Source: Acidimicrobiia bacterium | Lineage (GTDB): Bacteria; Actinomycetota; Acidimicrobiia; IMCC26256; JAMXLJ01 | NCBI GenBank assembly: GCA_035651955.1 | Contig: DASRES010000063.1 | Coordinates: 1-34,912, forward strand | DNA length: 34,912 nucleotides | Direction of reading: 5' to 3' | Shown: positions 6,984 through 29,509 of the stretch, in pieces | Layout: the number at the start of each line of letters is the position of its first letter | Position numbering within the stretch: the stretch's first letter is position 1 | The notes under the pieces: model-generated | What the model saw: the letters and a program-made list of their open reading frames with translations, nothing else | Databases searched by the model: none | Told to the model about the DNA's origin: nothing | Made by a program: the position numbers and the translations under genes

Positions 6984-7627
6984 AGCGCGCTCCTTGCGGT
7001 CTCCTCGGACGCGGGGCCCTCGAAGTTCGGCGTGGTCGCGTGGCCGGGCCGGCTGACGCCCTCCGGGTGGAACAGGACGCCGAAGGTGCGCAGGACGATG
7101 CGCAGATCGAGCAGGAACGACCGGTGATCGACGTACCACACGTCGAGGGCGAACTTCTCGTCCCACGAGAGCGCGTTCCGCCCGCTCACCTGCACCAGGC
7201 CGGTGATGCCGGGCCGCACCTCGTGCCGGCGCATCTGCTCGGGCGTGTAGCGCTCGAGGTACTCCATGAGCAGGGGGCGGGGACCGACGATGCTCATCTC
7301 CCCGCGCAGGACGTTCACGAGCTCGGGCAGCTCGTCGATGCTCGACGTCCGCAGGAACCGCCCGAGGCGCGTCAGCCGGTCGGCGTCGGGCAGGAACTCG
7401 CCCGAGCCGTCGCGCTCGTCGGTCATCGTCCGGAACTTGAGCATCGTGAACGGCTCGCCGTCGCGGCCCGGCCGCCGCTGTCGGAACAGCACGGGCCGTC
7501 CGAGACGCGTGCGCACGACGACCGCCGTCACCGCGACGATCGGCGACGTCGCGACGAGCGCGCCCGCCGCGACGACGACGTCGAACGCGCGCTTCACGCG
7601 ATCGCTGTTTCGATGGCGAGCCGTCAT
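6980..7627 (-). CDS. Priming sugar-phosphate transferase (PglC/WcaJ C-terminal type)
   Basis: This 215-residue monotopic membrane enzyme moves a sugar-1-phosphate from a UDP-sugar onto undecaprenyl phosphate and so starts repeat-unit assembly. It has the reentrant hydrophobic helix at about 13-38, KFRTM at 64-68, the catalytic Asp98-Glu99 in SSIDELPEL, MSIVGPRPLL, and RPGITGLVQVSGRN near 138-151. The size equals the minimal catalytic form (PglC); the long WcaJ-type N-terminal region is absent. Together with the nearby PglF-like dehydratase and DegT aminotransferase it suggests that the first sugar could be an amino-deoxy sugar. It starts with ATG inside the stop of the preceding GT4 gene and ends inside the start of the carbamoyltransferase gene. 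Confidence 0.9.
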   Translation of the reverse strand: MTARHRNSDRVKRAFDVVVAAGALVATSPIVAVTAVVVRTRLGRPVLFRQRRPGRDGEPFTMLKFRTMTDERDGSGEFLPDADRLTRLGRFLRTSSIDELPELVNVLRGEMSIVGPRPLLMEYLERYTPEQMRRHEVRPGITGLVQVSGRNALSWDEKFALDVWYVDHRSFLLDLRIVLRTFGVLFHPEGVSRPGHATTPNFEGPASEETARSAL

Positions 7628-8802: not shown

Positions 8803-9620
8803 GACGCCGCCCTCGCGTAGCGCAGGCGGTTCACCGCGCGGCGGACGTCGTCCTCGAGGCGCATGCCCCCGCGTGCCTTCGCCGCGAAGCCGGCCGTGTC
8901 GTCGGACGCCTGCACGGGCGAGCGCGCCAGCCGGTGGGGATCCGTACGGCCGTACGCGTTCGCGTGCGTGCCGGCGAGCGCGGCCGACGAGAACCGGGCG
9001 CGGACCGCCGCGTCCGCCGCGCGCGACCCCGCCAGCGACTTCGGGTAGGCGAAGTGCCGGGGGCGCACGCCGAGGCGCGCGCCGATGAGCTCGACCGACC
9101 TGTCGAGCTCCTCCACCACGACGGCGTCGGGCACGCGGTCGAGCAGCGCGTGGGTGTGGGTGTGCGAACCGACGGTCACGAGACCGGTCGCGACGGCGTC
9201 GCGCAGCGCGTCCCACGACAGCGGCGGCGCGCCGTAGGGGAAGGGACGTTGCTCCTCGACGAACGCCGTCGCGACGTAGATCGTCGCCGGGATCCGGTGG
9301 CGGGCGAGGACGGGCAGCGCGGTGTCGGCGAAGTCCGCGGTGCCGTCGTCGAAGGTCACGACGACCCGGGCAGGCGGCCCGTCCGCGGGCGGCGTGTCGG
9401 CGCGGAGCGCGGCGAGCGCGTCGTCGAGCGACAGGACCGCGCCACCGTCGGCCAGCGCCGCGATCTGGTCCTCGAAGCGGCCGCGGTCGAGGTCGAGCTG
9501 CAATCCGGAACCGCCGCCGACGCGGTGGTAGCAGAGGACGACGACCCCGGCGCCCGGGGGCCGGATCCGGTCGGCGACCCGGGCCGACGCCTTCAGCGCC
9601 CGCCGTGCGAGTTCCTTCAC
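8799..9620 (-). CDS. Polysaccharide deacetylase (NodB/CE4 fold) with YHRV motif
   Basis: This is a metal-dependent carbohydrate esterase-4 protein that probably removes N-acetyl groups from a glycan or precursor. The 273-residue reading has VVLCYHRVGGG near the start, VVVTFDDGTADF (the catalytic Asp and metal Asp), TVGSHTHTHALLD (the metal histidines), and FAYPKS as the third block. No signal peptide or anchor is visible, so it may act in the cytoplasm or use another route. The GTG at 9620 was preferred over the ATG at 9656 because AGGGAGGG lies just upstream. It leads a five-gene chain of 4-base overlaps down to the aminotransferase. Confidence 0.82.
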   Translation of the reverse strand: MKELARRALKASARVADRIRPPGAGVVVLCYHRVGGGSGLQLDLDRGRFEDQIAALADGGAVLSLDDALAALRADTPPADGPPARVVVTFDDGTADFADTALPVLARHRIPATIYVATAFVEEQRPFPYGAPPLSWDALRDAVATGLVTVGSHTHTHALLDRVPDAVVVEELDRSVELIGARLGVRPRHFAYPKSLAGSRAADAAVRARFSSAALAGTHANAYGRTDPHRLARSPVQASDDTAGFAAKARGGMRLEDDVRRAVNRLRYARAAS

Positions 9621-9674
9621 GTCCCTCCCTGCCGCCGTGCGCACCCGACCTGGCACGGATCGCGCATGCTAACG

Positions 9675-9703
9675 CCGCGCGCCGGCCGTCGTCCGGGGCG
9701 CGG
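9675..9703. terminator. Strong hairpin between the GNAT gene and the second deacetylase gene
   Basis: CCGCGCGCCGG at 9675-9685 pairs with CCGGGGCGCGG at 9693-9703 (10 of 11 positions) around a 7-base loop. It lies 15 bases past the stop of the GNAT gene on the minus strand and ahead of the deacetylase start at 9620. It may end or attenuate the first three-gene unit. No T-tract follows. A TAGCAT box on the minus strand just beyond it could restart transcription. Confidence 0.4.
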
Positions 9704-9717
9704 ACGCCGCGAATGGT

Positions 9718-10704
9718 TCAGAAGAGCTCGATGTCGCCGAGGCTCACGTGCCACTCGCCCGGCGGCGGCATCGAGCGGTCGCACACGTCCCGCCAGGTGA
9801 GGATCGGTCCCTGCCGGGGCAGCCGCACGAAGCCGCCCGCGACCGGGCCGGGCTCGGCGACCCGGATCGCGTACTCCCCGCCCGCCTCGCGCGCCGCCCG
9901 TCGCACGAGCGCGTGCGCGAGCCGTCGATCGCCTCCACGCGCCAGGACGTCGGCGACGACGGTCTCGCGTGCCGCGCCGCGAGCGCGCCGACGCAGGAAC
10001 ACCACGCCCTCACGGACGCCACCGGGCGCGACGACGCACCGGTACGGCAGCAGGTCCCCGCCGTAGCGCCAGGCGAGGAACTCGGGCGACCGGGCCGTCC
10101 GCAGGCCGCGCGACCGTGGCTGCGACGCGAGCAGCTCGCGCAGCTCCGCGGTGCGCGCGGTGACCGCCGACGCGGGCTCCCCCACGTCGCACGGTGCGGA
10201 CCACCGGTCGGCGGCCGTCCGCGAGCGCGCCATCCGGAGGAGCCCGGCGGGAGTGCGCGGCCGCACCGCGACGGGAACCCGCCCGACGACGCGCCACCGC
10301 ATCTTCAGGTAGCCGGGCCGGCTCTGGTCGTTCGGCGTGTTGAACACGAACCCGACCCCCTCGTCGCGCAGCGCGTCGAGCGCGTGCAACGTGAGCCGCG
10401 TGAAGATCCCGCGACCCTGGTAGTCGGGGTGCGTCGCGGTGTCGACGGCGCGCACCGCGTCGACCGTCGAGGCGTCGCGCTCGAAACGCCAGCGCATGAG
10501 CGTCCGGAAGCCCGCGAGCGCGTCGCCGTCGCACGCGACCCACATCGGCGACGGCCCGAACGCGTTCGTCTCGTGCTTCCAGGAGAAGAGCGCGTCGAAG
10601 CGCGCGTCGCGCGGGTCGCGCCCGAGCGACGTCGCGAGCAGCGCGACGATCGCGCCACGGTCGGCGGCCGTCGCCGGGCGGATCACCAGCCCGTCGTCGG
10701 TCAT
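9718..10704 (-). CDS. GNAT-fold N-acyltransferase of the exopolysaccharide-locus type
   Basis: The protein has 328 residues, twice a simple GNAT domain. The first half is a clear GNAT domain: LVIRPATAADRGAIVALL at the start, then AVDTATHPDYQGRGIFTRLT, where the QGRGIF loop binds the acyl-CoA pyrophosphate, and VFNTPNDQSRPGYLKM. The second half (from about 150) looks like a degenerate GNAT or Acetyltransf_9-type domain, including FLAWRYGGDLLPYRCVV. Such two-part acyltransferases are common beside polysaccharide deacetylases and GT4 enzymes. It could acylate the amino sugar made by the dehydratase/aminotransferase pair. The ATG at 10704 overlaps the stop of the upstream GT4 gene (ATGA). Confidence 0.8.
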   Translation of the reverse strand: MTDDGLVIRPATAADRGAIVALLATSLGRDPRDARFDALFSWKHETNAFGPSPMWVACDGDALAGFRTLMRWRFERDASTVDAVRAVDTATHPDYQGRGIFTRLTLHALDALRDEGVGFVFNTPNDQSRPGYLKMRWRVVGRVPVAVRPRTPAGLLRMARSRTAADRWSAPCDVGEPASAVTARTAELRELLASQPRSRGLRTARSPEFLAWRYGGDLLPYRCVVAPGGVREGVVFLRRRARGAARETVVADVLARGGDRRLAHALVRRAAREAGGEYAIRVAEPGPVAGGFVRLPRQGPILTWRDVCDRSMPPPGEWHVSLGDIELF

Positions 10705-11828
10705 GCCGGTGGTCGCAGGACGTCGTCGTACACGCGCTCGATCTCCCGCACCGTCACGCCGATGTCGAACCGCTCGCCTCGCGCCCGCGCCGCCGCGCCC
10801 ATCGACGCGCGCCGCGCCCCGTCGCGCACGAGCTCGTCGATCGCGTCCGCGAGCGCCTTCGGCTCGCGCGGCGGCACGAGGATCCCCTCGATGCCGTCGC
10901 GCACCGCTTCGGGCACCCCACCGACGTGGGTCGCGACGACGGGCAGGCCGAGCGCGAACGCCTCCATCACCGCGACGGGCAGACCCTCGTTCGACGACGC
11001 CAGCGTGAAAACGTCGCACGCCGCGAGCACGCGCACGGCGTCGTCGCGACGGCCGAGCAGCAGCACGCGGTCGCCGAGGCCGAGCCGCGCGTGCAACGCA
11101 CGGGTCTCGTCCTCCAGCTGTCCCTGCCCCACGGCGACGAACCGTACCGGCGAGCCGCGCCGCTCGAGCAGGCGTGCCGCCTCGAGGAGGTTCGGGTAGT
11201 CCTTCTGCGCGCGGAAGTTCGCGATCGTCCCGGCCACGGGCTCGTCCGGGCCGATGCCGAGCTCCGCACGCACGGCGTCGCGCTGCGACCGCTGTGCCGC
11301 GATCGCGTCGACGTCGACGCCGTGGATGATGACGCGCGCCCGACGCCGGAGGTACGGCCACATCGTGTCGCGCACCTCGTCCGACACCGCGATGTCGGCA
11401 GCGTCGAGCGGGAGCGTGAGGCCGTTGAGCACGCGCGTCGGCGTCGCGAAGCTGTGCCAGGTGTTGTGCAGCGTGTAGACGAGCCTCGGTCGCACGCGTC
11501 GCGGCAGGGTGCGCGCGACGAGGCGGGCGATGCCCGCGGGGTACGGCGAGTGCGCGTGCAGCACGTCGACGGGCTCGTCCAGGAGACGCCGGCGCAGACG
11601 CGACGCCCATCGGAGATCGCGCTCGTCGTGCACGCCGTAGCAGCGCGCCGAGACACCGAGCTGTTCGAGCGGCTGGACGAGCGCGTCCTTCCAGGGGAGG
11701 AGGTAGTCCGTCTCGAACGTGAAGCGCTTCCGGTCGTGGACGGCGGCCGCCGCGACGAGCAGTCGCTCGGCACCGCCCGGACCCAGCCCCTTCACGAGCC
11801 ACAGGACCCGGGCGCGCGCTCCCGTCAC
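10701..11828 (-). CDS. GT4-family (GT-B) glycosyltransferase
   Basis: The 375-residue protein opens with RVLWLVKGLGPGGAERLL, the GPGGAE loop that is common in GT4 enzymes. It carries VDVLHAHSPYPAGIARL and later VIIHGVDVDAI. The donor-binding part has AGTIANFRAQKDYPNLLEAA, the E-x7-E segment SSNEGLPVAVMEAFALG, and VVATHVGGVPEAV. It is therefore a retaining cytoplasmic glycosyltransferase for the repeat unit. The GTG at 11828 overlaps the deacetylase stop as GTGA and was chosen for that reason; an in-frame ATG at 11840 would add four residues. The gene ends inside the GNAT start. Confidence 0.87.
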   Translation of the reverse strand: MTGARARVLWLVKGLGPGGAERLLVAAAAVHDRKRFTFETDYLLPWKDALVQPLEQLGVSARCYGVHDERDLRWASRLRRRLLDEPVDVLHAHSPYPAGIARLVARTLPRRVRPRLVYTLHNTWHSFATPTRVLNGLTLPLDAADIAVSDEVRDTMWPYLRRRARVIIHGVDVDAIAAQRSQRDAVRAELGIGPDEPVAGTIANFRAQKDYPNLLEAARLLERRGSPVRFVAVGQGQLEDETRALHARLGLGDRVLLLGRRDDAVRVLAACDVFTLASSNEGLPVAVMEAFALGLPVVATHVGGVPEAVRDGIEGILVPPREPKALADAIDELVRDGARRASMGAAARARGERFDIGVTVREIERVYDDVLRPPA

Positions 11829-12565
11829 GCGCGCACCCACACCGTGCGCTCGACGGGGCCGCTACCGACCAGCGTCGACACGGTCACGCACCGGAGGCCG
11901 CGCGACGCGAGCTCCGCGAGCAGCGCGGCGACGAGGTCGGCACGGTCGTAACGCGGTGGCGGCGCGTCCGTGGCGGTGACGACGAGCGAGTCGTGCAGGA
12001 CGACGATCGAGCCGGGACCCGCGTTCGCGGCGACGCGTTGCACGACCGTGTCGATCGTGGTGTCGGCCCAGTCCTCGGCGTCGAGCGTCCACGTGACGGG
12101 GCGCAACCCGACGAGGCGCGCGGCCGCGACGGTCGTGAGCCGCTGCGCGCCGTGCGGTGGACGGTGCATGCGGACGGGGCGGCCCGTGAGCGCGGAGAGC
12201 CGCCGCCTCCCGGCCCGCAGGTGCCGGTACGCCCCAATCGGCGAGAGCGTCGTCAGGCGGGTGTGGTCGGTGCCGTGCAGCGCGACCTCGTGCCCCTCGG
12301 CGAGCATGCGGTCCAGCAGGCCCGGGTGCGCGACCGCGCGCTCGACGAGCACGAAGAACGTCGCGCGCGCGCCCGCGTGCGCGAGCGCGTCGAGCACCGC
12401 CGGCGTCGACGCCGGGTCGGGGCCGTCGTCGAACGTGAGCGAGACGACCGGGGTGCTCGTGCGCACCCCCCTGAGCGAGGTGAGGGGCGCGAGGACCGGC
12501 CGCGCGCCCCGCCACACGACGCGCCGGACAGGACGCGGGACCCACTCGCGGACGCTCGGCGGCAC
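11825..12565 (-). CDS. Polysaccharide deacetylase (NodB/CE4 fold)
   Basis: This 246-residue CE4 protein carries all five usual blocks: SLTFDDGPDPAST, ALHGTDHTRLT (His-x3-His rather than the common His-Ser-x2-His), RMHRPPHGAQ, TWTLDAEDWAD, and SIVVLHDSL. A short N-terminal basic segment (VREWVPRPVRRVVWRG) precedes the domain, with no strong signal peptide. The start is the GTG at 12565, six bases behind a TACCAT box, which would make it a leaderless transcript. The better Shine-Dalgarno-like sequence lies too far upstream. It is the promoter-proximal gene of the long minus-strand series and overlaps the next GT4 gene by GTGA. Confidence 0.82.
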   Translation of the reverse strand: MPPSVREWVPRPVRRVVWRGARPVLAPLTSLRGVRTSTPVVSLTFDDGPDPASTPAVLDALAHAGARATFFVLVERAVAHPGLLDRMLAEGHEVALHGTDHTRLTTLSPIGAYRHLRAGRRRLSALTGRPVRMHRPPHGAQRLTTVAAARLVGLRPVTWTLDAEDWADTTIDTVVQRVAANAGPGSIVVLHDSLVVTATDAPPPRYDRADLVAALLAELASRGLRCVTVSTLVGSGPVERTVWVRA

Positions 12566-15571: not shown

Positions 15572-16704
15572 ACGTCTACTGGTACTGGCCGTTCCTCCGT
15601 CGCGAGGAGCTCGGGCTCGCGTCGGGGGTGGTGGGGCCGGGGGACGAGCTGCTCGTCCACGTGACCGCGCGCGCGACGGATCCGGCGACGTCGTCGGTCC
15701 CGGGGTGCACGGTCGTCGCCGCGCTGCCGAACGTCGCGGAGCGACGCGAGCGGTCCCCGCGGTGGCTCGCGTCCCGCGCGTCGACCTACGTCAGGCGCGC
15801 GCTCATACGCGATCGGACCGTCCGGTTCGGGCGCTTCGACGTGTGCCACGTCATGTACCTCAACCGCTTCACCGACCCGGTCGCGCTGCGGCGGCTCGGC
15901 CGACGGACCGCGCTCGTGTCGAGCGTGCACGACGTCGTGCCGCACCAGCGACGGCTCCCGAAGGCCGCGGAGCGCGCACTGCTGCGTGTGCTGTACGACG
16001 GCGCCGGGACGCTCGTCGTCCACCACGACTTCGTCCGGCGCCGGCTCCTCGAGGAGTTCGCCGTCGACCCCGGCCGGGTCTTCGTCGTGCCACTGCAGGT
16101 CCCCGAGGTCGCGATCGACCCGCGAGAGGGCGTGCCGTCCCCGCCCGCATCCCGCCCGGTCGTGCTGTTCTTCGGCGCGTTCCGGCGGAACAAGGGCGTC
16201 GACGTGCTGCTCGACGCGATCCGGGCGACCACCGGCGAGACGGACGCGACCTTCGTCTTCGCCGGTCGCGGCGCGCCCGACGTCGAGCACCTCGTCGCCT
16301 CGGCGGCCGCGAACGACCCGCGCATCCGCGCGGAGATCGGGTTCGCGACGCTCGAGCGGAAGGAGGAGCTGTTCCGCGCGGCAGACCTGGTCGTGCTGCC
16401 GTACACGTCGTTCGCGTCGCAGAGCGCGGTGCTCCAGGACGCGTACGCGCACGGTGTCCCCGTGGTCGTGTCCGACGTCGGCGCGCTCGGGGACGCGGTC
16501 CGCGAGGACGGGACGGGCGTCGTCGTGCCGCCGGGCGACCGTGTCGCGCTCGCCGGTGCGGTCACGGACGCGCTGGCCGATGACGCGTCGAGGCGCGCGA
16601 TGTCCGCCGCCGCGGCGAGAATCGCGGCGGCCCGTCGACCCGAGGCCGTGGGGCAGGTGCTGCGGCAGGTGTACGTGGACGCGCTGGAGAGGGCATCGCG
16701 ATGA
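15568..16704 (+). CDS. GT4-family (GT-B) glycosyltransferase
   Basis: The 378-residue protein starts at a GTG that overlaps the previous stop as GTGA, giving VNVYWYWPFLRREELGLA. The GT-B features are FDVCHVMYLNRFTDP and SSVHDVVPHQRRLP in the N-terminal half. The C-terminal half has VVLFFGAFRRNKGVDVLLDA, FVFAGRGAPD and the donor loop VVLPYTSFASQSAVLQDAYAHG with VVVSDVGALGD. The loop has SQSAVLQDA instead of a full E-x7-E, a variant seen in many GT4 subfamilies. It is translationally coupled at both ends, to the GT2 before it and the dimethylformamidase-like gene after it (ATGA). Confidence 0.83.
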   Translation: MNVYWYWPFLRREELGLASGVVGPGDELLVHVTARATDPATSSVPGCTVVAALPNVAERRERSPRWLASRASTYVRRALIRDRTVRFGRFDVCHVMYLNRFTDPVALRRLGRRTALVSSVHDVVPHQRRLPKAAERALLRVLYDGAGTLVVHHDFVRRRLLEEFAVDPGRVFVVPLQVPEVAIDPREGVPSPPASRPVVLFFGAFRRNKGVDVLLDAIRATTGETDATFVFAGRGAPDVEHLVASAAANDPRIRAEIGFATLERKEELFRAADLVVLPYTSFASQSAVLQDAYAHGVPVVVSDVGALGDAVREDGTGVVVPPGDRVALAGAVTDALADDASRRAMSAAAARIAAARRPEAVGQVLRQVYVDALERASR

Positions 16705-19316
16705 GGAGGGTCGTCACCCTCGGCCCGCTGGGCGTGCTCGTCGCCGCGACGAGCGTCGGCGTGTCGAGCCTCGCGGCCGCGCCGCCACTGCACCGTGGGA
16801 CGGCGGCGTGCCCGACGACGTCACCCGTCGTGTGCGAGAACCGGCGGCCGGGAACGCCCGAGCGCGACTGGGCCGTCAAGGGGTCCGGCGACCCGACGAT
16901 CCAGGGGTTCGCGACGGACATCAGCGTCGACCACGGGCAGACGGTCCACTTCAAGGTCGACACGCCGGCCCGCCGCTACCACCTCGACATCTTCCGGCTC
17001 GGCTTCTACCGCGGTGACGGGGCCCGGCAGGTCGCGACCGTCCTGCCGTCGGCACCGCTCCCACAACGCCAGCCGCCGTGCACGCGCGAGACGACCGTGC
17101 ACGTGCGTCTCGTCGACTGCGGGAATTGGGCCGAGTCCGCGAGCTGGGCCGTCCCCCGTGATGCCGTGTCCGGCGTGTACTTCGCGCGGCTCGTCCGCGA
17201 CGACACGCGCGGCGCGAGCCAGGTGTTCTTCGTGGTGCGCGACGACGAGCGCCACTCCACGGTGCTGTTCCAGACGTCCGACTCGACGTGGGAGGCGTAC
17301 AACGACTACGGCGGCACCGGCATCTACACGGACCCCCCCACGGCGAAGGTCAGCTACAACCGGCCCTTCACCACCCGCACGGCGGAGGGCGGCCACGCGG
17401 TCGAGAGCTGGGTCCTGTACTCGGAGTACCCGATGATCCGCTGGCTCGAGGCGAACGGCTACGACGTGTCGTACTTCACGAGCGTCGACAGCGACCGGTT
17501 CGGCGCGAAGCTGCGCGACCACCGCGTCGTCCTGTCCGTCGGCCACGACGAGTACTGGTCCGCTGGGCAGCGGGCGAGCTTCGTCGCGGCGCGCGACGCC
17601 GGTGTGAACCTCGCGTTCTTCAGCGGCAACACGAGCTACTGGAAGACGCGCTGGGAGCCGAGCATCGACGGTTCCCACCAGCCGTACCGCACGCTCGTCA
17701 CCTACAAGGAGTCGCTCGCCAACTTCAAGACCGATCCGACCGCTGTTTGGACCGGGCTGTGGCGCGATCCGCGCTTCTCGCCGCCCGCGGACGGGGGGCA
17801 CCCGGAGAACGCGCTCATCGGGACGGAGTACGGCGTGTACGACGTGCCCGCGCTCCCCCTGCGCGTCAGCGCGGACGACGGCCGGCTGCGTCTCTGGCGC
17901 CACACCGGGCTCGACCGGCTGCCGCGGGGTTCGAGCGTCACGCTCGCCGCGCAGACGCTCGGATACGAGTGGGACTGGGACGCGGACGATGCGTCGCGTC
18001 CGCTCGACACGGCGGACCTCTCGAGCACGAGCGGCGCACCCTTCACACACGACGTCACGCTGTATCGCGCGTCGAGCGGCGCGCTCGTGTTCTCCGGGTC
18101 GTCGGTGCAGTGGTCCTGGGGGCTCGACGCGCACCATGACGCGAGCTGGGACGGCCGCGCGGTACCACGGCCGGACCGGCGCATCCGGCAGGCGACGGTG
18201 AACGTGCTCGCGGATCTCGGCGCGCAGCCGGCCTCGCTGCAGCACGGGCTCGTCCGGGCGCGACCGTCGACCGACAGGACTGCGCCGACGACGACGATCA
18301 CGCGCTCGCGCCTGCCGGCACACGTGGCGGTCGGGTCGGCCGTCACGGTCACCGGCACCGCACGCGACGTCGGCGGCGCGGTCGCGACCGTGGAGGTCTC
18401 CGTCGACGGCGGCAGGGCCTGGCACGAGGCCAAGGGCCGGTCGCGCTGGACGTACGTCTTCGTGCCGACGTCGCTCGGGCCCACGACCGTGGCGGCCCGC
18501 GCCGTCGACGACAGCGCGAACCTCGGCGCGCCCGTCTCCGTCGCGGGGCCGGACGTCGTGGCGCGCCCGTGCCCCTGCACGCTGTGGAGCTCGTCGGTCA
18601 CCCCCGCGAGGCCCGACGGCGGGGTGCCCGGGCCGCACGAGCTCGGCGTGAAGTTCAGCGCCGACGCGGACGGCTACGTGCTCGGCATCCGGTTCTACAA
18701 GGCGCGTGACAACACCGGCACGCACGTGGCGACGCTGTGGTCGGCGACGGGCAGGCAGCTCGCGACCACGACCGTGGTGCACGAGAGCGCGTCGGGCTGG
18801 CAGACCGCGACGTTCCCCGCCCCCGTGCCCATCCGCGCGCACGTGACGTACGTCGCCGCGTACCACACGAACGCGGGCCACTTCGCCGAGGACCCGCTGT
18901 ACTTCGACGACTGGTACACGACCGGCGCGCGCGGTCTCGACGTCCCGCCGCTCCACGCCCCGTGGTCACGAGGCCTCGGATGGCCGAACGGTGTGATCAG
19001 ATCGGGTGGTGTCGCGTTCCCGCGGGATGCACCCCCGCCCGACCAGTTCCTCGACGACGCGAACTACTGGGTCGAGCCCGTGTACGCGACGACCGCGCAC
19101 GCCGTCGCGCGAAAGGGACCGACGGGCACCGTCGAGAACCGCAACCCGGCGACGATCGCCGCGTTCGACGCCGTGGAGGGATCTCGTCAGCCGCGCGTGC
19201 ACAGCGGGTTCCTCCGCCACGTCCTCGAGGCGGGCGCCGTCGCGTTCGTCGTGCTCGGTGTGGCCGTCGTGATCGTCGTCCTCACTGCCCGCCGCCGCGT
19301 GCGCGTGCGCGCCTGA
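16701..19316 (+). CDS. Exported dimethylformamidase-like protein with DUF4082 domain and C-terminal membrane anchor
   Basis: The 871 residues open with a signal peptide (cleavage likely after SSLAAA, near 27). Residues about 45-515 resemble the large-subunit domain of N,N-dimethylformamidase: LDIFRLGFYRGDG, VLSVGHDEYWSAGQR (278-291), SGNTSYWKTRWEP and LGYEWDWDADD (420-430). An Ig-like domain follows (about 525-625), then a DUF4082-type beta domain (about 632-790; LGVKFSADADGYVLGIRFYK, DDANYWVEPVY). The end is one hydrophobic helix with the basic tail RRRVRVR. It should therefore sit outside the cell, held by the C-terminal helix. The known enzyme cleaves an amide with a mononuclear iron; the substrate here is unknown and could be part of the glycan. 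Its ATG overlaps the GT4 stop. Confidence 0.8.
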   Translation: MRRVVTLGPLGVLVAATSVGVSSLAAAPPLHRGTAACPTTSPVVCENRRPGTPERDWAVKGSGDPTIQGFATDISVDHGQTVHFKVDTPARRYHLDIFRLGFYRGDGARQVATVLPSAPLPQRQPPCTRETTVHVRLVDCGNWAESASWAVPRDAVSGVYFARLVRDDTRGASQVFFVVRDDERHSTVLFQTSDSTWEAYNDYGGTGIYTDPPTAKVSYNRPFTTRTAEGGHAVESWVLYSEYPMIRWLEANGYDVSYFTSVDSDRFGAKLRDHRVVLSVGHDEYWSAGQRASFVAARDAGVNLAFFSGNTSYWKTRWEPSIDGSHQPYRTLVTYKESLANFKTDPTAVWTGLWRDPRFSPPADGGHPENALIGTEYGVYDVPALPLRVSADDGRLRLWRHTGLDRLPRGSSVTLAAQTLGYEWDWDADDASRPLDTADLSSTSGAPFTHDVTLYRASSGALVFSGSSVQWSWGLDAHHDASWDGRAVPRPDRRIRQATVNVLADLGAQPASLQHGLVRARPSTDRTAPTTTITRSRLPAHVAVGSAVTVTGTARDVGGAVATVEVSVDGGRAWHEAKGRSRWTYVFVPTSLGPTTVAARAVDDSANLGAPVSVAGPDVVARPCPCTLWSSSVTPARPDGGVPGPHELGVKFSADADGYVLGIRFYKARDNTGTHVATLWSATGRQLATTTVVHESASGWQTATFPAPVPIRAHVTYVAAYHTNAGHFAEDPLYFDDWYTTGARGLDVPPLHAPWSRGLGWPNGVIRSGGVAFPRDAPPPDQFLDDANYWVEPVYATTAHAVARKGPTGTVENRNPATIAAFDAVEGSRQPRVHSGFLRHVLEAGAVAFVVLGVAVVIVVLTARRRVRVRA

Positions 19317-19319
19317 CCC

Positions 19320-20177
19320 GTGTCGATCGGCATGCCGACACCGTGGCGTGACCTCTCCGACGACCCGAACGCGCGCCCCGTGCTGCGCGCGCGACACGAG
19401 GCCGTCGTCCACGCGGTCCGCAGCCCCTTGCGCGACCGCACCGAGCGGATCGTCGAGCTGTGCCGCGACGCGCGTGTGCTCGACGTCGGCTGCGTCGACC
19501 ACCGCGCCGAGCTCCACGCGGGCCCGAACTGGCTCCACCGGCGGATCACGGAGGTCGCGTCGTCGTGCGTCGGGATCGACGTCGAGGCGGACGGTGTGGC
19601 GGCGATGCAGGCCGCAGGGTTCGACGCGCAGGTGCACGACGTGTGCGGGGACCCGGCGCCGCTCGTGGCGCGCGGTCCGTTCGACGTCGTCGTCGCGGGC
19701 GAGGTCCTCGAGCATCTCGCGTCGCCACAGGCGCTGTTCGAGCTCGCGGGCGCAGTGCTCGGGCCCGGCGGCCGGCTGGTCGTCACGACGCCCAACCCGT
19801 ACGCGCCGCACCGCGTCCGGGCCGGCCAGCTCGGGGTCTCGTTCGAGAACGCGGACCACGTCGTGTACGCGTTCCCTTCCGGGATCGTCGAGCTCGGTGC
19901 GCGCGCCGGGCTCGAGCTCGAGGAGTACCGGACCGTGTTCGTGCGACCGCTGAGGACCGAGTTGCGGCGCGCGATCGTCCGCCTCGCCCTCGACGCGCGC
20001 GACCGCATCCGCGGGAAGCGGCGCGAGCACACCGACGACCCCGACGCGGAGATCCTTCCCGCGCTCATGACGTACGTGAACCCGCTCGAGCTCGCGTTCG
20101 TCGCGACGACGCGGTCGTCGCGTCTCCTCGGCGAGACGGCGTTCTACGTCTTGCGCAAGGGTGCGGTCTCCCCGTAG
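19320..20177 (+). CDS. SAM-dependent class I methyltransferase
   Basis: This 285-residue protein carries the SAM-binding motif ARVLDVGCVDHRAEL, the acidic strand CVGIDVEADGV, FDVVVAGEVLEHLASPQALF (motif III region) and GGRLVVTTPNPYAPHR. This is the Methyltransf_11/23 pattern found in glycan O-methyltransferases. The start is the GTG at 19320, four bases after the previous stop; an ATG at 19332 is the alternative. The last 34 bases overlap, tail to tail, the end of the fusion gene on the other strand. It probably methylates a sugar of the polysaccharide, though a lipid or small-molecule substrate cannot be excluded. Confidence 0.8.
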   Translation: MSIGMPTPWRDLSDDPNARPVLRARHEAVVHAVRSPLRDRTERIVELCRDARVLDVGCVDHRAELHAGPNWLHRRITEVASSCVGIDVEADGVAAMQAAGFDAQVHDVCGDPAPLVARGPFDVVVAGEVLEHLASPQALFELAGAVLGPGGRLVVTTPNPYAPHRVRAGQLGVSFENADHVVYAFPSGIVELGARAGLELEEYRTVFVRPLRTELRRAIVRLALDARDRIRGKRREHTDDPDAEILPALMTYVNPLELAFVATTRSSRLLGETAFYVLRKGAVSP

Positions 20178-21604
20178 CGGAGCAACCGCGCGCGCCAGAG
20201 GTGCGCGAGAACCGTCGCCATGCGCGGGAGCTGCCCGGGCCGCACGCGCAGCGGCGCGTGCCAGTCGTACACCTTGCGCCACGACAGCCCGCTGAAGTGG
20301 CGGAACGTCGTGCGGAACGACTCCGGCATCTCGACCCAACCCAGCCCGGCGTCCTGCAGCCCCATGAAGAACGCGCCGCCGACGTCGTAGCCGATCTTCC
20401 CGCCGTACGCGTCAGGGGCCACGACGTCGAGGTACGCGAAGCTGGCGTCGACGCGCCCGCGCACCTTCTCGACGTCGACGAGCATGAGCCACGGCGCCGG
20501 GCGCGGGCCGAGCGTGCGCTTCGCACCCGTGTGCGGGTGCACGAACCGGCCCCGGGGCGGGAGCATCTGCGAGCAGACGAGCGCGCAGTCGTTGTCCTGC
20601 GCGGCACGCACCATGTCGTCGAGCCAGCCCGGCTCGAAGAACTCGATGTCCGAGTCGCAGAACACCGCGTAGCGGGTCCGGCAGTTGCGCAACCACCGGT
20701 CGAGCCACTCCGCGTGCATCCGGCCGTCCGGCGCGACCTCGAGCGTCAACCAGCCCCGCTGCTCGAACTCGCGCAGCATCTCGAGCGACCCGTCGGTCGA
20801 GCCGCAGTCACCGACGACGAGCTCGAAGGGACGGCCCGCGTAGTGGCGCATCGTGCGGATGCACAGCTCCGTCGCCGGCTTCGTGTTGATGCTGGCGACG
20901 TGCACGGTGACGTCGGGTTGCGCGGCACGGTCGTCGTGGCGTCCGTCTCGCACCGGTGCAGCGACGTCGCCGAGCGCACGCCGGATCCCGTGCGCGGCGC
21001 GTGCGGCGCCGTCGGCGACCGCGCCGAGACCCGTCAGCACGCGTTCGCTGCGTGAGAGGCGAAGCTCCCGGATGCGCTCGGGATCCGCGTGCCGCTCCAG
21101 CGCGTCGCGCCACTGGGCCGGGGTGATGGACGGGTCGAGGAAGCCGAGCTGCTGCGCGAGATAGCGCCAGTCCTGCGCGAAGCGCGGGAACGCCAGGAAC
21201 GTGTGCGGCAGGTCGAAACGCGTGATCGCGGCCATGAGCTCGTAGAGCTCGACACCGAGCGCGGCACGCTGCGCGGTGGCATGCGTGCGACGGATGGGCG
21301 AGTCGACGCGGTGCAGGAACGCGCCGTAGCGCGTCGCCCGCAGCCGGCTCGCGCTCGCGGTGTCGAGCGCGCGGACGGGCACGATCACGTGCTCGACGTC
21401 GACCGCCTGCACGTCGAGGACTGTGGCGAGCCGGTGCGCGAGGCCGGGATCGGCGACGATCCGCGGCGACCGGGGCGACTCGATGGGCGGGACGGGACGA
21501 TCGCCGTCACGCCCGGTGTCGAACCCGAGCTCGGTCAGGACGTCGAGCAGCAGCGACGTCCCCGCGCGCCCCGCACCGGCAATGACGACCTTCGCGTCAC
21601 TCAC
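20144..21604 (-). CDS. Fusion: sulfotransferase-like P-loop domain plus GT2 glycosyltransferase
   Basis: The 486-residue protein has two parts. Residues 1-190 begin VVIAGAGRAGTSLLLDVL, a phosphosulfate-binding-loop pattern (compare RSGTT in sulfotransferases). They also contain VIVPVRALDTASASR with Arg78 and Ser86, eight apart, as in the 3'-phosphate site of PAPS-dependent enzymes. Residues 231-486 are a GT2 domain: DVTVHVASINTKPATELC, LVVGDCGSTDGSLEML and the metal motif CDSDIEF with Asp317 and Asp319. A linker near 190-230 joins them. The GTG at 21604 overlaps the Wzt stop by 8 bases. One chain could thus both sulfate and glycosylate, or the first domain could be a relic that binds nucleotide. 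The sulfotransferase assignment rests on motifs only. Confidence 0.72.
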   Translation of the reverse strand: MSDAKVVIAGAGRAGTSLLLDVLTELGFDTGRDGDRPVPPIESPRSPRIVADPGLAHRLATVLDVQAVDVEHVIVPVRALDTASASRLRATRYGAFLHRVDSPIRRTHATAQRAALGVELYELMAAITRFDLPHTFLAFPRFAQDWRYLAQQLGFLDPSITPAQWRDALERHADPERIRELRLSRSERVLTGLGAVADGAARAAHGIRRALGDVAAPVRDGRHDDRAAQPDVTVHVASINTKPATELCIRTMRHYAGRPFELVVGDCGSTDGSLEMLREFEQRGWLTLEVAPDGRMHAEWLDRWLRNCRTRYAVFCDSDIEFFEPGWLDDMVRAAQDNDCALVCSQMLPPRGRFVHPHTGAKRTLGPRPAPWLMLVDVEKVRGRVDASFAYLDVVAPDAYGGKIGYDVGGAFFMGLQDAGLGWVEMPESFRTTFRHFSGLSWRKVYDWHAPLRVRPGQLPRMATVLAHLWRARLLRYGETAPLRKT

Positions 21605-22802
21605 CTTGCTCTGCCCTCCCCCAGTGCGCCTCGACGTAGACGGGCGACAGGCGGACGATCGCGCGCGGCGTCGGGTCGAGCTGGCGCACGCCCGACACCA
21701 GGAGCGGCGCGATCGGCTGCCACGGCGTGTACTCGATGCGGGTCTCGATCTGGTACGCGCCGAACCACAGGAAGTACTGCCCGGGCGGGAGCGGGAGCCG
21801 GGGCAGGCACAGGCGGAGCTTCGTCGTGCCGGGCGGGAGCATCGTCTCGTGGCGCACCACGAAGATCGGCGTCGGCGCGCCTTCGCTGACGCCGAGATAC
21901 AGGTTCACCGCGCGCTCGACGTCGGTCGAGACGGTCAGGTTGACGATGCACGGCTCGTTCACGAGCACGGCGCGACCGTCCGGGCCCTCCGCGCGCACCG
22001 CGTCGACACGGACGAGGCCGTGCACGTCCGCGTGCTCCGCCGCGCTGGCCTCGATCTCCGCCCGATACGCGCCGAGCACGTCGCCGACGGGACCGTCGGC
22101 GCGGACGATGCCGTCCGACAACCAGATGCCGCGGCTCGCGGTCGCCTCGACCGCGGCGAGGTCGTGCGAGACGAGCATCAGCGTCGTGCCGCTCTGGATC
22201 ACGTCGCGCATGCGGTCGAGGCACTTCTGCTGGAACGACGTGTCGCCGACCGCGAGCACCTCGTCGACGATGAGGACGCTCGGCTCGAGGAAGGCGGCGA
22301 CCGCGAAGCCGAGCCGCATCCGCATGCCGCTCGAGTAGAACTTCACCTGCCGTTCGACGGCGTCCTCGAGCTCCGCGAACGCGATGATCTCGTCGAGCCG
22401 TGACGCGACCTGCTTGCGGCTCAGCCCGAGCAACGTGCCGTAGATCATCACGTTCTCGCGCCCGGTCAGCTCGGGATGGATGCCCGACATCACCTCGATG
22501 AGCGCGCCGACACGGCCGCCGGTCGCGATTCGCCCCGTGTGCGGGAACATCACGCCGCTCACGATCTTGAGCAGCGTCGACTTGCCGGCTCCGTTCGCAC
22601 CGATGATCGCGACGGCCTCGCCCGGCTCGACGTCGAACGAGACGTCGCGCAACACCCACCGCCACGGGTTCGCGGCGACCGGCCCCCGCAGCCGCGCCGT
22701 CGCGCGCTGCACGTGGTCGCGCAGCAGCCGGCGCCCGCGGTCGGCCCGGAACCGCTTCCACAGCCGCTCGACGCGGACCGTCCCGTCAGGACACGTCGGC
22801 AA
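21597..22802 (-). CDS. wzt: Polysaccharide ABC exporter ATPase with carbohydrate-binding tail (Wzt-like)
   Basis: This is the ATPase of an ABC-2 polysaccharide exporter. Walker A is GANGAGKST (68-76), the ABC signature is FYSSGMRMR (YSSGM at 156-160), Walker B is SVLIVDEVLAVGD (from 175), and the switch histidine is His213 in VSHDL. Residues from about 250 to 401 form the extra beta-rich domain that in Wzt proteins recognises the capped end of the glycan. The only start that fits is a TTG at 22802, inside the last codons of the permease gene (17-base overlap). The protein keeps the long N-terminal segment (KRFRADRGRRLLRDH) common in this family. Confidence 0.9.
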   Translation of the reverse strand: MPTCPDGTVRVERLWKRFRADRGRRLLRDHVQRATARLRGPVAANPWRWVLRDVSFDVEPGEAVAIIGANGAGKSTLLKIVSGVMFPHTGRIATGGRVGALIEVMSGIHPELTGRENVMIYGTLLGLSRKQVASRLDEIIAFAELEDAVERQVKFYSSGMRMRLGFAVAAFLEPSVLIVDEVLAVGDTSFQQKCLDRMRDVIQSGTTLMLVSHDLAAVEATASRGIWLSDGIVRADGPVGDVLGAYRAEIEASAAEHADVHGLVRVDAVRAEGPDGRAVLVNEPCIVNLTVSTDVERAVNLYLGVSEGAPTPIFVVRHETMLPPGTTKLRLCLPRLPLPPGQYFLWFGAYQIETRIEYTPWQPIAPLLVSGVRQLDPTPRAIVRLSPVYVEAHWGRAEQGE

Positions 22803-23718
22803 AGCCCGTTTCCAACCGCTTGAAGAGCATGTACGTACCGAGGAGGTACAGCGCGCACGACAGCGTCTCGATCACGAGGTACGGCGTGTGCGGCGCGCGC
22901 CCGTACAGCACCGACTCGCGCAGGCCGTCGATGATCCCGCCGAGCGGGTTCACCGCGACGTACGGAGCACGCAGACCGACGGGGAACTCGCGCAGCCCGT
23001 AGACGACAGGCGTCACGAACAGCCCGAGCTGCAGGACCAGCGGCAGCGCGTGCCGCAGGTCGCGCAGGTACACGGTGATGCTGCCGGTGAACAACGCCGA
23101 CGCGACGGTGAACGCGACGAGCAGGACGACGAGCGGCAGCGCCCAGTACGACGTCGCGCTCGGGCCGCGCCCCTCGAACAGGAAGAGGAACACCAGCGCG
23201 AAGGTCGCGCACACGGCACCGACGCCCGCGGTCACGACCTCCGCGAGCGGGAACACCTCACGGGGCGCGTAGACCTTGTTCAGGAGCGGCTGGTTGACGA
23301 GGCTCGTGCCCGCGGTCGACACCGCGTTCGAGTAGAAGGTCCACGGCACGAGCCCGATGTACGAGAACAGCGGGTACGGGACGCCGCCGGTGTTCACGTT
23401 GCCGACGCGCTCGAACAGGAACGTGAAGACGATCATCAGCGTGAAGGGCGCGAGGAGTGCCCACGCGATGCCGAGGATCTCCTGGTTGTACGTCGAGCGG
23501 AGCTCACGGACCGCGAGGCTCCACACGACGTGGCGCGACCGCCAGAGGTCGCGCAGCGCCGTGCCGAGCCGGAGCGCGCGCCGGTAGCGCAGCTCGGGCG
23601 GGGGCGCCGCGGGGATGTCGGCCGCGCTGCGCACGACCGTCGTGGGCTCGTCGCGGCGCGCACCGTCGCGCGACCGTGCCTCGGATGCGTCCCGCGGCGA
23701 GGGGACAGAGACGCTCAC
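22786..23718 (-). CDS. wzm: Polysaccharide ABC exporter permease (Wzm-like, ABC-2 type)
   Basis: The 310-residue protein has a soluble N-terminal stretch of about 50 residues and then the ABC-2 permease core: LAVRELRSTYNQEILGIAWAL (amphipathic coupling helix and first membrane segment), then FTLMIVFTFLFERVG, VPYPLFSYIGLVPWTFYSNAV and YAPREVFPLAEV. At least five further hydrophobic stretches follow. It partners the overlapping Wzt gene. The GTG at 23718 has GGAGG eight bases upstream. No flippase gene is seen nearby, so this pair is the only complete exporter in the polysaccharide part of the window. Confidence 0.9.
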   Translation of the reverse strand: MSVSVPSPRDASEARSRDGARRDEPTTVVRSAADIPAAPPPELRYRRALRLGTALRDLWRSRHVVWSLAVRELRSTYNQEILGIAWALLAPFTLMIVFTFLFERVGNVNTGGVPYPLFSYIGLVPWTFYSNAVSTAGTSLVNQPLLNKVYAPREVFPLAEVVTAGVGAVCATFALVFLFLFEGRGPSATSYWALPLVVLLVAFTVASALFTGSITVYLRDLRHALPLVLQLGLFVTPVVYGLREFPVGLRAPYVAVNPLGGIIDGLRESVLYGRAPHTPYLVIETLSCALYLLGTYMLFKRLETGFADVS

Positions 23719-25898: not shown

Positions 25899-27923
25899 AT
25901 GAGACCGGTCGAGTACCTGCGACTCGTACGACAACGATGGTGGGTGCTGCCGATCACCGCGATCATCGGGCTGATCGCCGCGTTCGCGACGAAGCCGGCC
26001 GCGCCCAAGCCGATCGTCGTGCCGCCGTCGACGTACAAGGCGACCGCCGTCCTCGTCGCCAAGCCGCTCGGGTCGAGCGAGACGCCCGGCATCGACTACG
26101 ACCGCTTGGCCCTGCTCGCCACGACGGGTGACGTCCCGCAGCGGGTCTCGGCCACGCTCGGCGTCGGGAACCCGACCGCGTTCACCCCCCCGCCCGTCTC
26201 CAAGGACCAGCCGATCGACCCGAACGTCGAGGGCAATCCACGGGGCGTCTTCATGTCCCCGGCCACGGTCGTCGTGACGCCCAACAAGATCACCGGCTCG
26301 CTGACGATCGTCGCGTCGGGGAACTCGCGCTACCAGGCGGCCGCGGTCGCCAACGCGATGGCGACGGAGCTGCAGATCTTCCTCAACCTGCCGAGCAGCA
26401 ACGGGATCGCGACGCCGCTCGTCCACTTCGTGCAGAGCGTGTTCGCGACGGTCGACGCGCAGCGGAAGCCGATCTTCCAGCAGATCCCCACGCTGCACTT
26501 CGAAGCCCTCGCCGCGTTCTTCGCGCGGAACATCAACGAGGCCAAGCGCCTCAACGCGCAGCACGACGCCGCGGTCAACCGGCTGATCTCGCTCGACCGC
26601 CAGCTGTTCGGCTACCTGCAGACGAACAGCACGAGCCCGCTCGTCACCTACCAGCTCGCCTCGACCAACAGCGAGGACGTCATCCCGCCGAAGCTGCCGA
26701 AGGAGGCGGTCGTCAAGGCCGGCCTGCCGCGCTACCTGCTCGGCATGGGCATCGGCATCGCGGTCGGCATCGCGATCATCCTGCTCGCCGAGACGATGCG
26801 CCCGCGCGTGCGCGACCTCCGGAGCGCGGAGGGCACCGCCCGCATGCCCGTGGCGGCCGAGATCTCGGCGGTCCCGATCACCCGCGCCGACCGGTTCCGG
26901 GTCATCGCCGCGGAGGAGCCGTCCTCGTTGCTCGCCGAGGCGTACCGGACGTTGCGGACGTCGATCATCGCGATGTGGCCGCGCCATCCCGTCAACACCA
27001 ACGGGAGCAGCAACGGATCGCAGGGCCACGCCGTCCGGCCCTTGCGCACGCTGCTCGTCACGTCCGCGGGCCCCGGTGAGGGCAAGTCGGTCACCGCGGT
27101 CAACCTCGCGGCGACGTTCGCCGAGACCGGTGCGCGCGTCATCGTCCTCGACGCCGACCCCCGCCGCCCCACCATCCACCGGTACTTCGGCGGCCGCTCG
27201 ACCCCGAACCTCGCCGAGCTCGACACCGACCTCACCGCCGAGGACCTCGAGCACGTGTTGCAGGACAGCACGGTGCCCGGCGTCCGCTTCGCGGCGAGCG
27301 CGCGCGGGAACATGCCTGCGCAGACCGTCGGCGTGGTGAAGGCGGCCACCCGGGTCGCGACGGAGCTCGCGGACGTCGTGATCCTCGACTGCCCGCCGAT
27401 CCTCGTCGCCAACGACGCCGCCGACCTCGCGACGGTCGTCGACGCGACCATCTTCGTCGTCCGCGCGAACCGGACGCGCCGCGAGACCGTCGCCCGGGCC
27501 GCGGGCCTGCTCAGGCGGGTCGAGGCGCGCGTGATCGGTGCGGTCCTCGTCGGCGTCGAGCGGACGACACCGGACGGGTTCTACGGCTACTACGGGTACT
27601 ACGGCTACGAGGACGAGAGCGCCCGCCCCCGCAAGCGGTTCCTCGGCGGCCGCCGGAAGCGTGCACGGGCACGGCAGCGCGACGGTCAGCCGGCACGGGC
27701 GGTGGAGGCGGCCGGGACCCGGACCGAGGGGTCGCCCCATCCGGTCGCGGTCATCGACCTGACCGACGCGCCGACCCACCACGAGCACGGCGCCCGCAGC
27801 GGCACGATCGTCCGTGAGCCGGCGACGCCGCCGTCGACGTCCGCGCCGCGCTCGGACGAGCCTCCCGACGGCGACGGCCCGGACGGCGGTGCCGGACCGG
27901 GGACCGCACCGCCGACGCCGTGA
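25899..27923 (+). CDS. Fused Wzz chain-length regulator and BY-type tyrosine kinase
   Basis: This 674-residue protein joins a membrane chain-length domain and a bacterial tyrosine kinase, so it likely sets polymer length and switches assembly by autophosphorylation. Membrane helices lie at about 16-31 and 279-297 with the outer domain between them. The kinase has Walker A SAGPGEGKS (389-397), Walker A' VIVLDADPRRP (from 414) and Walker B VVILDCPP (493-500). A tyrosine cluster follows at 562-570 (FYGYYGYYGYE, six tyrosines). Unusually, a further 100 residues of basic, then proline-rich, low-complexity sequence follow the cluster. The ATG at 25899 has GGGAG about 13 bases ahead. Its stop overlaps the GTG of the next gene. 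Confidence 0.9.
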   Translation: MRPVEYLRLVRQRWWVLPITAIIGLIAAFATKPAAPKPIVVPPSTYKATAVLVAKPLGSSETPGIDYDRLALLATTGDVPQRVSATLGVGNPTAFTPPPVSKDQPIDPNVEGNPRGVFMSPATVVVTPNKITGSLTIVASGNSRYQAAAVANAMATELQIFLNLPSSNGIATPLVHFVQSVFATVDAQRKPIFQQIPTLHFEALAAFFARNINEAKRLNAQHDAAVNRLISLDRQLFGYLQTNSTSPLVTYQLASTNSEDVIPPKLPKEAVVKAGLPRYLLGMGIGIAVGIAIILLAETMRPRVRDLRSAEGTARMPVAAEISAVPITRADRFRVIAAEEPSSLLAEAYRTLRTSIIAMWPRHPVNTNGSSNGSQGHAVRPLRTLLVTSAGPGEGKSVTAVNLAATFAETGARVIVLDADPRRPTIHRYFGGRSTPNLAELDTDLTAEDLEHVLQDSTVPGVRFAASARGNMPAQTVGVVKAATRVATELADVVILDCPPILVANDAADLATVVDATIFVVRANRTRRETVARAAGLLRRVEARVIGAVLVGVERTTPDGFYGYYGYYGYEDESARPRKRFLGGRRKRARARQRDGQPARAVEAAGTRTEGSPHPVAVIDLTDAPTHHEHGARSGTIVREPATPPSTSAPRSDEPPDGDGPDGGAGPGTAPPTP

Positions 27924-29509
27924 CCGCGGCCGTCACCGCGACGAACGCGTACGAGGCGCCGGTCGGCCGGCCGACGCTCGGCGACGCGCCGACGTGGTGT
28001 CGCTTCATCGTCTTCGTCGGCGTCGCCGCGTACGTGGTGACGCTCGCGATCGGCGTCATCCGCGGATCGTTCTTCCTCCTCGGCGCGTGCGCGCAGGTGC
28101 CGTTGTGGGCGATCGTGACGATGCCGCTCGCGCGGAAGATCGCCCGCAGCGAGCGCGACGCCGGCGTCTACGGCTTCGTGATGGCCGCGTTCGCGGCCAA
28201 GATGCTCGGCGTCCTCGTGCGGCAGGCCGTCGCGTTCGGTGTCTACGGCGGCGTGCTCGACGCCAACACCTACGACAAGGCGGGCCGGCAGCTCGCGCCG
28301 TACTACCGCCACTTCGACTTCAGCCCGAACACCGGCAAGCTCGTCGGGACCGGCTTCCTCAAGGCCCTCACCGGCGTGGTCTACGCGTTCTCGGGCACGT
28401 CGGAGCTCGGTGCCTTCGTCTTCTTCTCGTTCCTGTCGTTCCTCGGGCTGCTCATGCTGTGGCGCGCGTTCCGCCGCGCGGTCCCCGAGGGAGACGGTCG
28501 CCGGTACGGGCTGCTGGTGCTGTTCCTCCCGTCGCTCCTGTACTGGCCCTCGGCGCTCGGCAAGGAGGGCTGGGGCCTCTTCTGCGTCGGGCTGTGCTCG
28601 TACGGCGTCGCGCTGCTGCTCACACGACAGGTCCTCCCGGCGATCCTGTTGCTCGCGGCCGGGCTCGTCGGCGTCACGATGCTGCGCCCGCACGTCGCGC
28701 TCGTCGTCTTCGGCGGGCTCGTGTTCGCGGCGCTCGTCGGGAAGTCGCAGTCGGCGTCACCGTCGGCACCGATCCTGCGCGTCATCGTCTTCGGCGCGCT
28801 GTTCCTCGTCGGCCTCGTGCTCGTCTCGCAGGCCAAGAGCTTCCTCGGCGTCAACAGCCTCGACCAGACGACCGTCGGCAAGAAGCTCGACAAGACGCAG
28901 CAGCTCACCGGGAAGGAAGCGGGCTCGACGTTCTCGCCCGCGCGCATCCACAGCCCGATCGACGTCCCGTGGGCGACGGTCACCGTCCTGTTCCGGCCGC
29001 TCCCCTGGGAGGCGCACAGCGGTCAGGAGATGGCGGCGACGGCCGAGAGCCTCTTCCTCGTCATCCTGACGATCAAGTCGCGCCGCCGCCTCCGCTCCAT
29101 CCCGCGGATGGCGCGCGAGCGGCCATACATCGCGTACTGCATCGGCTTCACGGCGATGTTCATCTTCGCGTTCTCGTCGTTCGCGAACTTCGGCCTGCTC
29201 GCGCGGCAACGAACGCAGACCATGCCACTCGTGCTGACGTTCCTCGCGCTGCCCGAGTTCGTGCCGAAGTGGCGGCAGGAGCAGACGCCGGCCGGTACGC
29301 GAACGATCGACCGCGTCGAGGCCGCGGCGCCCGCCAGCGCGTGGTCGGACAACCCGTACGCGCCGTTCATGCCCGTGCCGAACGGGCGCACGCCCGAGCA
29401 CGCGAACGGCCAAGCCGCGCAACCGCGTGAGTACGACGACCGCGACCCCTACGCGCCGTTCGGGATCACCGCGCGCGACGACCCGTACGCGCGCTTCCGC
29501 GACAGCTAG
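27920..29509 (+). CDS. Polytopic membrane protein, putative Wzy-like polymerase, with repeated tyrosine motif tail
   Basis: I do not recognise a firm family. The 529 residues have roughly ten hydrophobic segments, a loop with ANTYDKAGRQLAPYYRHFDF, and PSLLYWPSALGKEGWGLF. This resembles O-antigen-polymerase-like proteins of exopolysaccharide clusters. Translational coupling (GTGA) to the Wzz/kinase gene supports a role in polymerisation. The soluble C-terminus carries three similar motifs: NPYAPF (478-483), DPYAPF (509-514) and DPYARF (521-526), each with one tyrosine. The stop TAG lies in CTAG, whose other strand is the stop of the converging dehydrogenase gene. Confidence 0.6.
   Translation: MTAAVTATNAYEAPVGRPTLGDAPTWCRFIVFVGVAAYVVTLAIGVIRGSFFLLGACAQVPLWAIVTMPLARKIARSERDAGVYGFVMAAFAAKMLGVLVRQAVAFGVYGGVLDANTYDKAGRQLAPYYRHFDFSPNTGKLVGTGFLKALTGVVYAFSGTSELGAFVFFSFLSFLGLLMLWRAFRRAVPEGDGRRYGLLVLFLPSLLYWPSALGKEGWGLFCVGLCSYGVALLLTRQVLPAILLLAAGLVGVTMLRPHVALVVFGGLVFAALVGKSQSASPSAPILRVIVFGALFLVGLVLVSQAKSFLGVNSLDQTTVGKKLDKTQQLTGKEAGSTFSPARIHSPIDVPWATVTVLFRPLPWEAHSGQEMAATAESLFLVILTIKSRRRLRSIPRMARERPYIAYCIGFTAMFIFAFSSFANFGLLARQRTQTMPLVLTFLALPEFVPKWRQEQTPAGTRTIDRVEAAAPASAWSDNPYAPFMPVPNGRTPEHANGQAAQPREYDDRDPYAPFGITARDDPYARFRDS

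Follow-up and report, generated by a model that had tools for sequence, protein, structure and literature searches.

The window analyzed here is the whole 34,912-nucleotide stretch of DNA from an Acidimicrobiia bacterium, which we take to be a soil or water actinobacterium. At the center of our analysis is a gene that joins a sulfotransferase-fold domain and a GT2 glycosyltransferase in one reading frame free of internal stops (Table 1). Its start lies inside the 3′ end of wzt, which in turn overlaps wzm. Because of these overlaps (8 nt and 17 nt), the three genes probably form one operon, supporting an earlier note on this DNA in which the fusion gene was described as encoded against a Wzt/Wzm exporter. 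At its other end, the fusion gene overlaps a convergent methyltransferase gene (19320-20177) by 34 nt. Elsewhere in the window, positions 4111 to 12550 hold decoration genes (a carbamoyltransferase, a DegT aminotransferase, a GNAT acetyltransferase, and two polysaccharide deacetylases), and an 871-amino-acid protein with an N,N-dimethylformamidase beta-subunit-like C domain, Big_7, and DUF4082 is encoded inside the polysaccharide locus (16701-19316). Beside Wzm/Wzt, the region 25899-29509 encodes a protein with a ParA-type ATPase and an N-terminal region that reads as chain-length-regulator-like (no Pfam match there), and then a 529-amino-acid membrane-like protein without a Pfam match. Together with Wzm/Wzt, these genes possibly place two export pathways in one locus.

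Table 1. Features of the fusion gene and of the adjoining exporter genes (window positions)
Feature	Position	Strand	Details
Fusion gene, sulfotransferase-fold domain plus GT2 glycosyltransferase	20144..21604	(-)	486 aa, GTG start
Residues 1-190, sulfotransferase-fold domain	21035..21604	(-)	Family without its own Pfam/NCBIfam model
P-loop GAGRAGTS, residues 10-17, 5′-phosphosulfate site, kept	21554..21577	(-)	Family alignment
Residues 32-46, AGxE region of unfused relatives	21467..21511	(-)	Recognizable AGxE absent
Ala51	21452..21454	(-)	Lys (I[VI]KxP) in 80/80 unfused relatives; alignment with LKSP Lys of Sulfotransfer_3
R78...S86, 3′-phosphate site, kept	21347..21373	(-)	80/80 in family; colinear with R/S of Sulfotransfer_3
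Asp101-Ser102 in place of near-invariant Gly-Gly	21299..21304	(-)	Unfused G 79/80 and 77/80
Interdomain helix and linker, residues 191-228	20921..21034	(-)	Fast evolving
GT2 domain, residues 229-440	20285..20920	(-)	PF00535; structural matches WrtF, TarP, SpsA
DSD motif of GT2 domain, residues 317-319	20648..20656	(-)	
wzt, ABC-transporter ATPase, conserved C-terminal extension	21597..22802	(-)	8-nt overlap with fusion gene
wzm, ABC-2 membrane subunit	22786..23718	(-)	17-nt overlap with wzt

The C-terminal half has the hallmarks of the GT2 family, namely, a GT-A fold, the DSD sequence as its DxD motif, and a PF00535 match above the cut-off (residues 234-348; 43.4 bits versus a cut-off of 23.3; E = 4.4e-11), and the intact GT2 domain described earlier is thus confirmed. 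In the predicted structure of the fused protein (pLDDT 87, pTM 0.63), residues 229 to 440 form a clear GT-A domain whose structural matches are WrtF, TarP, and SpsA (Z ∼15 to 17.4). The pLDDT is low at residues 213 to 226, and how the two domains sit relative to each other is not reliable in this model. The window GT2 shares PF00535, the DSD motif, and its structure with WrtF, TarP, and SpsA and differs from them by the fused sulfotransferase-fold domain.

The N-terminal half alone matched no Pfam or NCBIfam family, and phmmer against PDB sequences returned only chance-level matches. A single-sequence scan of genome contigs gave no match to its family; an alignment was needed as the query, and this yielded 137 loci from the Actinomycetota, Verrucomicrobiota, Pseudomonadota, Planctomycetota, Acidobacteriota, Chloroflexota, and Bacteroidota. 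As the scan took the P-loop and the FPRF motif for its patterns, the loci were not selected for the Lys, Glu, or GG loop discussed below. Sulfotransfer_3 (PF13469; gathering cut-off, 27 bits) matches 13 of 17 unfused members, with 22.8 bits for the first member and a best E value of 3.5e-5, still below the cut-off, while the window protein itself gave no match to this model. Eight family members searched against NCBIfam had no meaningful match. The family of the N-terminal half is widespread in bacteria, and no Pfam or NCBIfam model scores above its cut-off on it. A profile of the 17 relatives, like the phmmer search, retrieved no sulfotransferase chain from the PDB, so for this family solved structures lie beyond the reach of sequence searches alone. 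By tblastn, one family member found a single hypothetical protein in plasmids, and another found no match in phages. The genes neighboring family members include GT2 and ABC-2 exporter genes; a tally of the neighbors of distant loci with actinobacterial queries was discarded as too insensitive (19 of 61 loci).

Structure prediction, applied to an unfused relative from L026 (model pLDDT 83), placed sulfotransferases at the head of the Foldseek matches, and sulfotransferases filled all 50 VIA rows (Z 9.1 to 11.4). The best match was human TPST1 with bound PAP (Z 11.4; root mean square deviation, 3.8 over 176 residues). In residues 1 to 172 of the fused model, strands and helices follow one another as they do in this relative, on which the structure searches were run. 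The N-terminal half is therefore predicted to adopt the fold of PAPS-dependent sulfotransferases, as modeled in the unfused relative, and the sulfotransferase-like assignment of the earlier note gains support at the level of the fold.

The same fusion occurs in both genomes of the genus, i.e., in the window and in a sister genome (G027) whose protein is ∼70% identical. As this sister comes from a separate assembly, an assembly error, a misassembly, or a chance frameshift was ruled out, and the single protein joining both domains is real. Of 58 genomes of the order that were searched, 19 encode the N-terminal family, and 13 of 19 neighborhoods contain a GT2 homologue (fused sister included). 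In the other neighborhoods examined, the two halves are separate genes within a polysaccharide locus that is largely syntenic among relatives. In five loci (L024, L025, L026, L030, and L031), the stop of the upstream gene shares 1 to 4 nt with the start of the GT2 gene; the fusion thus joined neighbors that already overlapped and were probably translationally coupled. The survey of related loci therefore yielded both a second copy of the fusion and the conserved gene pair that preceded it. Other domain combinations occur in the family as well. A 959-amino-acid Verrucomicrobiia protein (L141:3983-6859) combines a family member with Rhamno_transf (PF11316), Methyltransf_24, and Sulfotransfer_1 domains, representing a second, independent fusion to a glycosyltransferase; it resembles the window protein in this respect but differs in its rhamnosyltransferase-like GT family and in its methyltransferase and Sulfotransfer_1 domains. 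Family members are fused to methyltransferase domains in Rhizobium lusitanum (L117:730-2418) and Rhodopseudomonas rhenobacensis (L151:3986-6544), and one from Opitutia (L092:3992-5035) carries C-terminal EF-hand motifs.

To interpret the N-terminal half at the level of residues, we compared the two fused sequences (n = 2 only) with 80 nonredundant unfused members, defined as those outside the genus of the window, a few of which carry other domains, such as L141. In sulfotransferases generally, the 5′-phosphosulfate is bound by a Lys or Arg and the 3′-phosphate by a Ser, and the base is a Glu or His (PMC11625862); the catalytic residues of TPST1/TPST2 are R79/R78, E100/E99, K159/K158, and S286/S285 (PMC5562738). 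GAGRAGTS conforms to the GxxRxGT pattern of the 5′-phosphosulfate loop and R78/S86 to the R-x7-S pattern of the 3′-phosphate site. Neither motif is there by chance: among the unfused members, the P-loop Arg is present in 79/80 (the exception lacks a normal N terminus), the P-loop Thr in 80/80, and the counterparts of R78 and S86 in 80/80 each. The unfused members also have a Lys (80/80), the Glu of an AGxE motif (80/80), and a GG loop (79/80 and 77/80). The fused proteins retain the P-loop, R78, S86, and R87, but both carry Ala in place of the Lys and Asp-Ser in place of GG, and neither has a recognizable AGxE. L141 keeps the Lys and Glu, like all sequences from outside the genus. Over 25 near-invariant columns, the fused copies break 6 and 7, compared with a mean of 0.44 in the rest; the next worst, with 5 breaks, is the copy without a normal N terminus.

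The weight of these losses depends on the alignments. The Lys change reads as unambiguous in the family alignment, while the loss of the AGxE Glu hinges on the alignment chosen, one of which puts the nearby E42 at this position. A global profile alignment of the family with Sulfotransfer_3 (102 rows; its score is low and it was used for colinearity only) lined up the P-loop, the LKSP Lys, the R, and the S in the same order, and hhalign of the 17 relatives with three Sulfotransfer_3 proteins aligned the P-loop only. From order, spacing, and this low-scoring alignment, we infer that the family Lys corresponds to the KSP Lys of Sulfotransfer_3 and to K158 of TPST2, i.e., to the catalytic Lys replaced by Ala51 in both fused copies. 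The unfused relatives are thus colinear with Sulfotransfer_3 proteins (including mycobacterial STF9, 2z6v), though they stay below its gathering score. They also share the order P-loop Arg, Glu, Lys, and R-x7-S with human TPST1/2, to which they are only ∼14% identical and compared with which their domain is smaller; the substrate of the family is very unlikely to be a protein, unlike that of TPST. Taken together, these replacements suggest that the fused domain probably no longer adds sulfate.

The two halves of the fused protein also differ in their rates. On a shared tree, the ratio of sulfotransferase-domain to GT2 distances was 1.83 for the fused pair, 1.21 between fused and unfused sequences, and 0.97 for unfused pairs, showing that the sulfotransferase half evolves relatively faster in the fused pair. 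The domain is nevertheless under purifying selection and not decaying, as its dN/dS is ∼0.19, similar to that of the GT2 core (0.21) and far below that of the linker (0.82; dS is near saturation, making these ratios rough), and the two species share 90% identity in its P-loop region, compared with 32% in the linker. Loss of catalytic residues combined with continued selection fits a noncatalytic role that was kept.

We consider it reasonably probable that the GT2 half works while the sulfotransferase half serves as a noncatalytic binding or docking module. A conserved overlapping gene pair in Acidimicrobiia polysaccharide loci, encoding a small sulfotransferase-fold protein and a GT2, has become a single reading frame in this genus; the unfused pair probably consists of a real sulfotransferase beside a glycosyltransferase. 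The GT2 half would be a working enzyme that adds sugar to a glycan made at the cytoplasmic face. Because its donor motifs are kept while the Lys, the AGxE Glu (depending on the alignment), and the GG loop are lost, the fused sulfotransferase half is predicted to bind PAPS, PAP, or glycan but not to transfer sulfate, and it may have been kept as a module of the GT2 with a binding, docking, or regulatory role. Counting against this explanation, other bases serve some sulfotransferases. More specifically, the N-terminal half might be a pseudo-sulfotransferase whose binding of PAPS or PAP serves to regulate or position the glycosyltransferase, such that glycan assembly would answer to the sulfur or PAP state of the cell. 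This is a tentative idea that we hold to be rather unlikely; if true, the domain would represent a pseudoenzyme module derived from a former modifying enzyme.

Alternatively, the fused protein could be a working bifunctional enzyme: with its active site rearranged, the N-terminal domain would still sulfate the sugar added or extended by the GT2 half, and export by Wzm/Wzt would follow. The retained fold and donor pocket and the purifying selection on the domain are in line with this, and E42 could serve as a base. An APS kinase is encoded in the genome, which makes a supply of PAPS probable in this organism. Unfused relatives are found near other sulfotransferase genes, with one to three extra sulfotransferases in several of their loci. 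However, an Ala stands where all 80 unfused members have Lys, AGxE and GG are gone from both fused copies, and the sulfotransferase half is the relatively faster-evolving one. Moreover, neither the window nor the 20-kb region around the sister copy (10 kb on either side) yielded another sulfotransferase; the four Sulfotransfer_3 proteins of the genome are encoded elsewhere, none of them on the contig of the window. A loss of all locus sulfotransferases by the fused genus is only suggestive, because extra sulfotransferases are also missing from the loci of some relatives whose domain is intact. On balance, we regard the bifunctional enzyme as doubtful. The link between sulfation and export put forward in the earlier note accordingly stays plausible for the ancestral gene pair and is unlikely for the fused protein.

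The same note took the tail of Wzt for a carbohydrate-binding domain of the kind that would read a sulfated cap. Its C-terminal extension is real, conserved, and ∼150 amino acids long, but Pfam Wzt_C gave no match at E values up to 1 in six Wzt orthologues. As good alignments of the extension span both lineages whose sulfotransferase domain is intact and lineages in which it is degenerate, nothing ties it to a sulfated cap.

A further alternative is that the whole family does not act in sulfation but performs another job in glycan assembly (chain-length control, handling of the acceptor, or transfer of another group), which the fused copy would continue. We know of no assayed member of the N-terminal family. 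Consistent with such a role, our searches found no member with known activity, and the window protein and its relatives are unnamed by NCBIfam and fall below the Pfam cut-off. By analogy, the wbsalmo O-antigen cluster of Aeromonas salmonicida encodes a 216-amino-acid protein with a sulfotransferase domain (ORF19) after Wzt, and sulfate on this O-antigen is unreported (PMC4483657); ORF19 adjoins Wzt like the window gene but stands alone, and the two are likened by domain and position. Against this alternative, the unfused members keep R, E, K, R, and S in sulfotransferase order. In addition, at L125:1969-5572 a stand-alone family member shares a few bases with a sulfatase gene on one side and has a Sulfotransfer_1 gene on the other, and at L119 a family member lies near a TPR-Sulfotransfer_3 gene. 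We thus find this alternative quite improbable. Finally, a decaying relic without function would account for the lost residues and the raised relative rate, but the low dN/dS and the conserved P-loop region make it highly implausible.

The fusion gene bears on how sulfation is recognized in genomes. Sulfation should not be read from a P-loop and an R/S pair by themselves, as the fused copies keep both and lose residues that do not vary among the relatives sampled. The family is present in many bacterial phyla and yet remains below threshold in Pfam and unnamed in NCBIfam; polysaccharide sulfation outside cyanobacteria may therefore be undercounted. In the cyanobacterium Synechocystis 6803, the synechan (xss) cluster encodes sulfotransferases and glycosyltransferases together for an exopolysaccharide (PMC8205485). 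Unlike the window locus, it uses a Wzx/Wzy pathway and separate sulfotransferase genes, and its sulfate has been demonstrated. The gene pair and its fusion offer a natural test of the coupling between sulfation and sugar transfer, as well as of whether a sulfotransferase can turn into a noncatalytic partner of a glycosyltransferase. As a minor observation from the survey, two records titled Bifidobacterium breve (L075 and L079) hold acidimicrobial loci, and their titles look wrong; the family protein of L075 is 96% identical to that of IMCC26256.
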